From assembly GCA_022824405.1 (NCBI GenBank), contig JAJDZZ010000036.1, forward strand, positions 1-64,000: 64,000 nucleotides of DNA. Direction: 5' to 3'. Source of the stretch: Opitutales bacterium. GTDB taxonomy: Bacteria > Verrucomicrobiota > Verrucomicrobiia > Opitutales > UBA2995. Below, piece after piece: positions 19,085-21,692 of this stretch (its first letter is position 1; every line of letters starts with the position of its first letter). Made by a program: the position numbers and the translations under genes. A model generated the notes under the pieces. The model made no database searches, was not told where the DNA came from, and saw nothing but the letters and a program-made list of their open reading frames with translations.

Positions 19085-19357
19085 GTGAATAAATCCGAAC
19101 TTATAAACGAAGTAGCCGACCGGGCTGATCTATCCAAAGCCGATGCTGTAAGAGCATTGGGGGCTGTCCTCGACGCTGTAGCTGAATCCCTGGCCAAGGG
19201 AGAACCTGTTTCCCTGGTGGGATTTGGCAATTTTTCTGTGTCACGCAGAAATGCCCGGACCGGACGCAATCCGCAAACGGGCGCTGAAATCCACATTCCG
19301 GCTCGGAATTTGGTCAAGTTTTCCGCGGGTAAGGCGCTCAAGGATGCGGTCCAATAA
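19085..19357 (+). CDS. HU-family DNA-binding protein
   Basis: 90-residue histone-like dimeric protein that bends DNA. The N-terminal [11 protein letters not shown] and the DNA-binding arm [14 protein letters not shown] are canonical. The start codon is GTG at 19085, preceded by a good Shine-Dalgarno sequence GAAAGG at 19071-19076. A strong terminator follows at 19379. The gene stands alone on its strand. Confidence 0.97.
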
Positions 19358-19378
19358 AATCATCCTGAGGATACTTTG

Positions 19379-19405
19379 AAAAAGGCCGGAATTTCCGGCC
19401 TTTTT
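19379..19405 (+). terminator. Rho-independent terminator of the HU gene
   Basis: An 11-bp perfect stem, AAAAAGGCCGG at 19379-19389 with CCGGCCTTTTT at 19395-19405, and loop AATTT. The stem ends in a T run and lies 22 bases after the HU stop. The A-tract on the left side could make it act in both directions. Confidence 0.92.
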
Positions 19406-19440
19406 CATTATTATTGCTTGCTAAGGAAATTTTCATCGTC

Positions 19441-19585
19441 CTGACTGAATCGCTGCTGAAAGCGGACCCCTTTCAGTTTGTTCTTTAATCTATAACAGGA
19501 AAAGCCGTGAGAACCGGCTACAGTCGCGCTACGGTATCAAACCGCTCACTCCTTGGATAAGGAGGGGTCAATTCTTAAATCCTGC
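19441..19585 (+). promoter_or_regulatory. Candidate cobalamin riboswitch
   Basis: The long leader of the receptor gene at 19815 contains a core like the B12 riboswitch. It has 'caggaaaa' at about 19496-19503, then a 5-bp hairpin AGCCG-TGAGAAC-CGGCT whose loop matches the conserved GGUGAAAAUCC element. Next comes 'acagtcgcgctacggta', matching the C-G-C-xACUGU segment. A small hairpin CTCCTT-GGAT-AAGGAG follows, and then 'gtcaattcttaaatcctgc', which resembles a degenerate 3' B12 box. GACCCCT at 19465-19471 pairs with AGGGGTC at 19563-19569 and closes the core. The match is imperfect, so this is a candidate only. The downstream gene looks like BtuB, which fits. Confidence 0.55.
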
Positions 19586-19759
19586 ATTAACATGCACGAT
19601 TACACGAAATGACCCCATGGAGTGAAGGATTTGGCCAACGGTCCGGTCAAGTTCGAGTTTGGAGTCCGACTTCTGTTTGAAAAATCCAATAATTTGCCGC
19701 GTCAGCAAGAAATGGAATTGAGCTAACGTATTTTTCATACGGACCCAATTTTCGTCCCA

Positions 19760-19811
19760 TTTGGTTTTCCTTGGGGGTAGCAGTTCTGTTGTGCGGCGCC
19801 ACAAAACCAAA
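19760..19811 (+). promoter_or_regulatory. Inverted repeat just before the receptor start codon
   Basis: TTTGGTTTT at 19760-19768 is complementary to AAAACCAAA at 19803-19811, three bases before the ATG at 19815. The 34-base loop includes the only purine-rich stretch in the area (cttgggggtagc). The structure could hide or present the ribosome-binding region, as the expression platform of the upstream riboswitch candidate. Its function is inferred only. Confidence 0.4.
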
Positions 19812-19814
19812 TCC

Positions 19815-21692
19815 ATGAAAATTACCTTCCGCGCCAGAAACGTAATTGAAGCGCCGACACTCGGCTTTATCGCCGCAGTGGGGCTCATCACGCAAACCTT
19901 AACCCTTGGGGAAGACACCTCCGACCATCTGCTCGAGGAGCACGTGGTGGTGGCCAACCGGACCGAGGTGCCAATTGGAAAAGCTGGCAGTTCGATTGAA
20001 ATCCTCACCTCGGTCGATTTCGAACCTCTGAAACAGTCTTTTCTTCTCGAAGCCTTGAGATTGGTTCCGGGTTTCTATTTGAGGAATAACGGGGGACCCG
20101 GACAGAGCTTCGGAATAACCACACGGGGCCTCAACACAAATCGCCCTGTCGTGCTTATCGATGGAATCGAAGTGAGCAATCCCGCTTCGGGCGAAATCAT
20201 TAATTTTGGCACGCTATTTCTTTCCCAAATCGAACGCGTGGAAATTCTCAAAGGGTCGAATAGCACGATCTATGGCGCCGACGCCCTGGCGGGGGTTATC
20301 AGCATATCCAGTAAAGTTGGCAAGGGGGAACCCGGATCATCGCTGGATTTGATGGCGGGATCGCAAGGCACCAATCAGATCGGAGCGTCGACCTGGGGTG
20401 AATCCGGAGACTGGAATTACCGTGTTGCTGTGTCCTCTTACGATTCGGAGGGTTTTTCCGTGCAGCCGGCCGACTTCGGGGAGGCCTGGGCCGACGACGA
20501 TCTCTACCGTAACCTGAATGGCTCGATCAATATCGGTTACGACATCAGCGATACCTCCTCCCTCCGCTTTCTGGGTTATTACGTGGATTCGAAGGCTGAA
20601 TTCGATCCGGGTAATCCGGACTTCATATTTGGAGAAGCCTTTGCCGATAACTACACCCTGACGGAGCAGCTTTTTGGCAAAGTGGGCCTGAACTTCGAGC
20701 CTGGTGAATCCTGGGCATCTACCCTGAGCCTCGGTTATAACCATACGGATTCCTTCAGCATGTCCTCCTTTCCCTTCACCAGCCAAGGAGAGCGCTATGA
20801 AGCGGATTGGCTCAACACCGTTCATATTTCCGATACTTATCGATTGGTTGCAGGATTGGAGTACGAAGACGAGGAACATTTGTCCGACACGGGACAACGC
20901 GATGAAACTTCGCTGTTTCTTGAAAACCTCCTGAACCTCAATTCCGCCTTGGCTATAACCTTGGGTGGGAGGTTCGATGACAACAGCGCTTATGGGGAAG
21001 AAACGACCTACCGGGGAACTTTCAGTTATGATTTGAAAGATTCCGAGAACCTCGCCTTGAGAACTCGCGGATCTTTCGGAACCTCATTTCAAGCGCCCAC
21101 CTTCTTCCACTTGTTCAGTTTCTTCGGAAATCCGTTGGTGAAACCGGAATCGGGCTGGGGTCTGGACCTCGGTTTGGAAGGGACCGTTCAGAACGGGCCG
21201 ACCTCATTTGCCCTGACCTACTTTGACTACAAGGTGAAGGATAAGATAATCTATGACTTCGCCAGGAATAGCTTCATCAACCAGGAGACCTATGAAAGTT
21301 CGGGTTTGGAGACCATGGCCAAGGTGCAGATCCATCGCTCTCTTTCCTTGCAATTTTCCCACACCTATGCCCACGCCGAGTATGAAGATGGGACCGAGGC
21401 CGAACGCGTGCCCCGCAACCTCTATTCGGCACAGCTCAATTGGCAATACCCCGAGAAAAAGTGGGGGATCCACCTGAGCCATCATTGGGTGGGGTCGCAA
21501 TACAGCCTGCGCCGCGACAAAGAAAAAATGCCGGCCTATGGGACGGCCAATTTTGCCGTGACCTACGCCTTCAGGGAAGGGATGGATATCTGGCTGCGGA
21601 TCGACAACCTTTTCGATAGCGAATATCAGGAGGTAAGGGATTACAACACGCCCGGACTATCCGTCTATTCCGGTTGGAATTTCAGGTTTTGA
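19815..21692 (+). CDS. TonB-dependent receptor, BtuB-like (putative cobalamin receptor)
   Basis: 625 residues from the ATG at 19815, close to the 614 of E. coli BtuB. A signal segment precedes a TonB-box region with EDTSDHLLEEHVVVANRTEVP, which resembles the BtuB N terminus. The plug domain follows (RGLNTNRPVVLIDGIEVSNP, RVEILKGSNSTIYGADALAGVI). The remainder is an outer-membrane beta barrel ending in a C-terminal aromatic strand (SGWNFRF). The late strands (PRNLYSAQLNWQYPEKKWG, WLRIDNLFDSEYQEV) also resemble BtuB. Uptake of cobalamin is inferred from this and from the candidate riboswitch upstream. Another metal complex or siderophore remains possible. No btuCDF genes are adjacent. Confidence 0.8.
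   Translation: MKITFRARNVIEAPTLGFIAAVGLITQTLTLGEDTSDHLLEEHVVVANRTEVPIGKAGSSIEILTSVDFEPLKQSFLLEALRLVPGFYLRNNGGPGQSFGITTRGLNTNRPVVLIDGIEVSNPASGEIINFGTLFLSQIERVEILKGSNSTIYGADALAGVISISSKVGKGEPGSSLDLMAGSQGTNQIGASTWGESGDWNYRVAVSSYDSEGFSVQPADFGEAWADDDLYRNLNGSINIGYDISDTSSLRFLGYYVDSKAEFDPGNPDFIFGEAFADNYTLTEQLFGKVGLNFEPGESWASTLSLGYNHTDSFSMSSFPFTSQGERYEADWLNTVHISDTYRLVAGLEYEDEEHLSDTGQRDETSLFLENLLNLNSALAITLGGRFDDNSAYGEETTYRGTFSYDLKDSENLALRTRGSFGTSFQAPTFFHLFSFFGNPLVKPESGWGLDLGLEGTVQNGPTSFALTYFDYKVKDKIIYDFARNSFINQETYESSGLETMAKVQIHRSLSLQFSHTYAHAEYEDGTEAERVPRNLYSAQLNWQYPEKKWGIHLSHHWVGSQYSLRRDKEKMPAYGTANFAVTYAFREGMDIWLRIDNLFDSEYQEVRDYNTPGLSVYSGWNFRF

Follow-up and report, generated by a model that had tools for sequence, protein, structure and literature searches.

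The 64,000-nucleotide window of Opitutales DNA (the whole stretch that was analysed) belongs to a 3.4-Mb assembly of 92 contigs, and between its genes for HU and for a TonB-dependent receptor lies a long stretch of DNA. The question raised by this locus is whether that stretch holds an intact regulator of the receptor gene. The first-pass annotation had proposed a cobalamin riboswitch that ends at 19585 and is either a divergent class or a decayed copy. As judged from its sequence, an AdoCbl-type cobalamin riboswitch lies in the gap at approximately 19480–19709, and its expression platform reaches as far as the ATG at 19815. The element is very probably intact and specific to its lineage, nearest to the Rfam families RF01482 and RF01689, and would switch through kissing of the L5 and L13 loops and a hairpin over the start codon. 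This is a long-known kind of riboswitch that has diverged within a lineage, and the biology is ordinary.

The flanking genes are as first annotated: HU matches PF00216 and the TonB receptor scores best with TonB-B12. The ATG at 19815 is most likely the receptor start, and the HU–receptor gap is therefore 457 bases, as originally given. TIGR01779 (TonB-B12) is the top-scoring of 29 NCBIfam matches to the receptor at 279.3 bits, below its equivalog cut-off of 599.7 bits; the receptor is BtuB-like by context, the cut-off not being reached. Among named records the nearest receptors come from Opitutia/Opitutales, Pelagicoccus and Puniceicoccaceae (Verrucomicrobia). The features of the locus are as follows.

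19085–19357: HU gene (PF00216)
19377–19407, + strand: HU's own terminator, downstream of HU in the scan for terminator-like sites
19480–19486, + strand: GTTCTTT box, seen in the sequences at a similar distance before most orthologous aptamers
19495–19498, + strand: P3 5' strand ACAG, pairing with 19673–19676 (4/4 pairs in 11/13 sequences)
19503–19519, + strand: P4 hairpin with loop L4 UGAGAAC (5/5 pairs in 13/13 sequences)
19522–19530, + strand: P5/L5, with loop UCGCG at 19524–19528, putative kissing-loop partner of L13 (invariant in 13 orthologs)
19532–19534, + strand: P6 5' strand CGG, pairing with 19666–19668 (invariant, 13/13)
19538–19542, + strand: base of the P6 accessory arm (P7 in the scripts), CAAAC, pairing with GTTTG at 19657–19661
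19543–19656, + strand: variable P6 accessory arm (predicted fold; length differs widely among orthologs)
19547–19552/19619–19624, + strand: accessory-arm internal stem CACTCC/GGAGTG (predicted fold)
19564–19570/19610–19616, + strand: accessory-arm internal stem GGGGTCA/TGACCCC (predicted fold)
19657–19661, + strand: accessory-arm base 3' strand GTTTG
19662–19669, + strand: true 3' box GAGTCCGA, which includes the P6 3' strand (AGTCCG in 13/13 orthologs)
19673–19676, + strand: P3 3' strand CTGT (pairing counts, folds)
19693–19709, + strand: P13/L13 hairpin TTTGC-CGCGTCA-GCAAG (TTG(C/T)CGC in 13/13)
19747–19823, + strand: predicted start-codon-sequestering hairpin AATTTTCGT...ATTTGGTTTT / AAAACCAAAT..ATGAAAATT (AUG pairing probability)
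19815–21692, + strand: btuB-like TonB-dependent receptor, 625 aa from the ATG at 19815 (Pfam Plug and barrel; TIGR01779)

At gathering thresholds, the Rfam models returned only tRNA and no cobalamin riboswitch over the whole window. Searches below those thresholds yielded 23.8 bits with RF01689 at 19480–19559 (cut-off 36.5), 25.1 bits with RF01482 at 19476–19619 (cut-off 50) and 13.6 bits with RF00174 at 19457–19688 (cut-off 31.5), none of which reaches its cut-off. Within its own genome the element is the sole RF01482 match at E ≤ 10 and the second of four weak RF00174 matches, the other three of which score 10.4–14.2 bits. The RF01689 and RF01482 matches were not taken at face value, as they stop at 19559 and 19619, short of the true 3' half. 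The accessory arm pushes that half to 19657–19709, which is why both the first-pass annotation and the Rfam models misplaced it; RF01689 does so because a 7-base loop takes the place of the long arm in that model. The Rfam score by itself leaves the riboswitch call undecided. The RF01482 cut-off is passed by 3 of 16 loci scanned (L048, L049 and L051, 50.4–52.8 bits) and the RF01689 cut-off in 2 of 53 genomes (G005, 41.9 bits; G002, 38.3 bits).

A receptor match at E ≤ 1e-40 was found in 15 of 53 related genomes. The same leader had been suggested as something to look for before homologous receptors, and its core is present upstream of the receptor in every one of the eight genomes of its family, its own counted, and in each of five other Verrucomicrobia records whose upstream DNA is long enough (L038, L041, L042, L043 and L045). 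The 12 loci from named records comprise five that repeat contigs already in the set, these five new ones with the core, and two that were excluded from the leader set: L044, which has just 125 bases of upstream sequence, and L046, a betaproteobacterial match that is partial and lacks the core. Common to the resulting 13 sequences are GTCGCGCTACGGTA, a box of sequence (G/A)AGTCCG and a hairpin with TTG(C/T)CGC; the arm between GTCGCGCTACGGTA and the box is short in 5 members and long in 8. These leaders display features expected of the cobalamin riboswitch clan, namely a P3-P4-P5-P6 core with conserved L4 and L5, a 3' box of the AGUCCG type, and a position before genes of B12 uptake or metabolism, here the TonB-B12 receptor 3' of the element.

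Base pairing is retained throughout this set. In alignment A3 of the 13 sequences, 97.9% of 336 pair cells are paired, and both partners have changed in 8 of the 27 pairs. In 500 shuffles the observed pairing was never reached, and sliding the partner strand gave 27–39%. The MAFFT alignment splits the accessory-arm base in the five short members, so that those cells count as gaps among the 336; a separate per-sequence count covers this base in all 13 and finds 5/5 pairs in each, formed by six different duplexes. Three of the four P3 pairs changed on both sides across the 13 sequences, and the closing pair of P4 is A-U in the window in place of C-G. P13 has 5/5 pairs in 10 sequences and is incomplete in three by a fixed-loop count. 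The P2 strands fit their own partners (−7.0 kcal/mol) better than those of others (−3.4 kcal/mol; 0/20,000 permutations). In the window and in G001, its nearest relative and the other member of its genus, P2 is weak: its −0.7 kcal/mol falls short of the −2.8 kcal/mol that non-cognate strands reach there on average.

The L5 and L13 loops, named after PMC10653944, could interact: L5 is UCGCG and L13 starts with CGC in 13/13, which provides three complementary bases, and the CGC of the window's L13 (19698–19700) is able to pair with the GCG of L5. Because both loops are invariant in the ortholog set, they show no covariation there. In other families, too, several TonB-receptor leaders have the same L13 loop. 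An earlier reading paired TTGYCGC with GCGACA on the 3' side of P4, as seen by eye in several sequences; this helix is missing from the window and others and gave way to the L5-L13 reading, which follows PMC10653944. Comparison of the sequences shows a P3–P6 core with a variable arm as an insertion at P6 and, beyond it, a P13/L13 hairpin capable of kissing L5.

These results alter the extent of the element more than its identity. The AGGAAAA motif, the hairpin with loop TGAGAAC (P4/L4) and CAGTCGCGCTACGGTA, which spans P5/L5 to P6 at 19521–19536, are present in the right order, as first described. The end at 19585 does not hold, the conserved 3' box and P13 lying at 19662–19709, some 80–120 bases beyond it. 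What had been taken for a degenerate 3' box falls within, or pairs with, the variable accessory arm and is not conserved. The 7-bp closing stem, read as GACCCCT 19465–19471 / AGGGGTC 19563–19569, is likewise abandoned: the G001 leader has no counterpart of its 3' arm, and in the folded window this arm pairs with TGACCCC at 19610–19616 inside the accessory arm instead. Upstream of the aptamer, 19456–19486 holds a 7-bp hairpin, CTGAAAG/CTTTCAG, followed by the GTTCTTT box; this box or a close variant also precedes most orthologous aptamers and may be part of a promoter or of the RNA.

Five relatives of another genus, and none of the window's own, served to build a covariance model, R1. In the 3.4-Mb genome it gave one match at E ≤ 0.1, at 19497–19550 (37.8 bits, E 6.4e-6), which makes the element more than a chance likeness. 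With filters off, a second piece at 19578–19710 (11.8 bits, E 0.0022 in 321 bases) recovered the P6 3' strand, the accessory-arm base, the P3 3' strand, the 3' box and P13. The R1 and RF01482 searches of the genome found no second copy. At seven more distant receptor loci (L028–L034, of which L028 has no upstream DNA), R1 matches L034 only, RF00174 matches L030 only, and the rest match neither. The L030 match is a canonical RF00174 riboswitch of 106.3 bits, upstream of the receptor on the same strand.

Two other identities have to be weighed against an intact riboswitch. A decayed copy, a former riboswitch whose function was lost in the window's lineage, would account for the weak P2 and for scores under all Rfam cut-offs. 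However, the core is identical to that of G001 at 52/52 and 65/67 positions, while the receptor gene is only 88.7% identical (1536/1731); since the core is the better preserved, the element is not decaying, and P3, P4 and the base of the accessory arm stay paired through the changes of the lineage. The accessory arm is 48/59 identical to that of G001, with 47 gap columns. Decay is thus very improbable, and of the alternatives first offered, divergence stands and decay falls. Slightly less probable still is a mere resemblance to a cobalamin aptamer, the conserved leader being in truth a binding site for a protein or a structured RNA of another kind. Room for it is left by the fact that cobalamin binding is predicted from sequence, but orthologous leaders exceed the RF01482 and RF01689 cut-offs, and the distant relative L030 carries its canonical riboswitch upstream of the receptor, on the same strand. 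The first-pass annotation had named two signs that would speak against a riboswitch: the lack of an above-threshold covariance hit was found in the window, but loss of pairing in related genomes was not, pairing being strongly conserved there. Its central claim, a cobalamin riboswitch before a BtuB-like receptor, is borne out by the pairing kept in relatives and by those orthologous leaders that pass Rfam cut-offs.

How such an intact riboswitch would act on the receptor is suggested by the sequence between P13 and the ATG. A + strand scan of 19300–19900 found no terminator-like site in this interval, and translational control is therefore most likely. Transcription termination in place of start-codon hiding is an unlikely mode of action: some cobalamin riboswitches are transcriptional, according to PMC10653944, but the only + strand sites in the scanned region are the HU terminator and one at 19455–19477, before the aptamer. 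For start-codon hiding, the pairing probability of the AUG in the window is 0.96 (0.88–1.0 in whole-leader folds), and it is at least 0.95 in 8 of 12 leaders, with a mean of 0.78 versus 0.52 for shuffles; it is low in G003 (0.14) and L041 (0.04), and L043 was left out of these counts because its start could not be placed. The start-codon hairpin is kept in G001 with an A-U to G-C exchange. Left unconstrained, the leader folds with only 5 of the 24 aptamer pairs and gains 8.1 kcal/mol over the constrained fold, ligand and tertiary contacts being outside the model. The AUG hairpin forms whether or not the aptamer is constrained, so it is from better-studied relatives that the switching is inferred. 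Binding of adenosylcobalamin or a related corrinoid would bring L5 to kiss L13; kissing would stabilise P13 and favour the hairpin that buries the receptor start codon. BtuB translation would then be repressed and uptake turned down when B12 suffices, and receptor translation would proceed when no ligand is bound. Two segments at 19727–19755, ATTTTTCAT and AATTTTCGT, lie 5' of the ATG and are both complementary to the region of the start codon, and the switch could involve competition between the two.

The genome encodes MetH, an NrdJ-like protein that scores 365.5 bits, short of its cut-off, and one Peripla_BP_2 protein, at L078:1372–3182, adjoining a gene for a DUF6580 membrane protein. CbiC had no hit in the genome, and methylmalonyl-CoA mutase was looked for there and not found. 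MetH, Peripla_BP_2 and the NrdJ-like protein, together with the lack of CbiC, fit an organism that imports B12. A Peripla_BP_2 gene lies directly 3' of the receptor at two orthologous loci, and the L078 protein could be part of the uptake route.

R1 matches occur in 73 of 273 genomes of the order, a count that includes any sites which Rfam finds as well. Twenty-two of the listed loci were examined, 20 of which have a usable downstream ORF: 13 are TonB receptors, three Asp-Al_Ex permeases, one a biotin carboxylase, one a CitMHS transporter, and two are without a match. In a different family within this order (L064, L066 and L067) a cobalamin-type riboswitch precedes an Asp-Al_Ex (PF06826)/TrkA_C permease, which is a candidate for an unrecognised B12-related transporter. 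The R1 match at L077 lies upstream of a CitMHS/sodium symporter-like gene.

The annotation of a B12 regulator that falls below Rfam cut-offs is hereby corrected, and its orthologs form a natural series, from short to long arm and from strong to weak P2 with a constant kissing loop, through which the dispensable parts of the aptamer could be sought. The element shares the P2-to-P13 order of the RF01482 AdoCbl riboswitch (clan CL00101), whose cut-off three orthologous leaders exceed; it differs in its P6 accessory arm of ~115 bases, its weak P2, and its L5 UCGCG with L13 CGC. A highly variable length is described for the P6 accessory region of cobalamin riboswitches in PMC9600662. The 5' half of the window's core aligns well with RF01689 (AdoCbl-II), which two relatives pass, and the long arm stands in place of that model's 7-base loop. 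RF00174 is alike in kind of core and gene context, although the window attains only 13.6 of the 31.5 bits required and the L030 relative 106.3. In the E. coli btuB, env8HyCbl and P. megaterium metE riboswitches, an L5-L13 kissing loop joins aptamer and platform, according to PMC10653944, which describes the first two as acting on a hairpin at the RBS; in the window the predicted hairpin covers the AUG. The P. megaterium kissing loop pairs C70-C71-G72 with C185-G186-G187, i.e. UCCCG/CGG (PMC10653944). Mapped onto this numbering, position 70 is G and position 187 is C in the window, a complementary exchange, and the middle kissing pair would be G-C in the window in contrast to C-G in P. megaterium. 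The exchanged pair, an arm of ~15 to >100 bases among orthologs of a single gene and a platform that conceals the start codon may possibly mark a branch of cobalamin riboswitches of Opitutia's own, a reading held tentatively, in which the window's lineage would be the extreme with P2 nearly lost.
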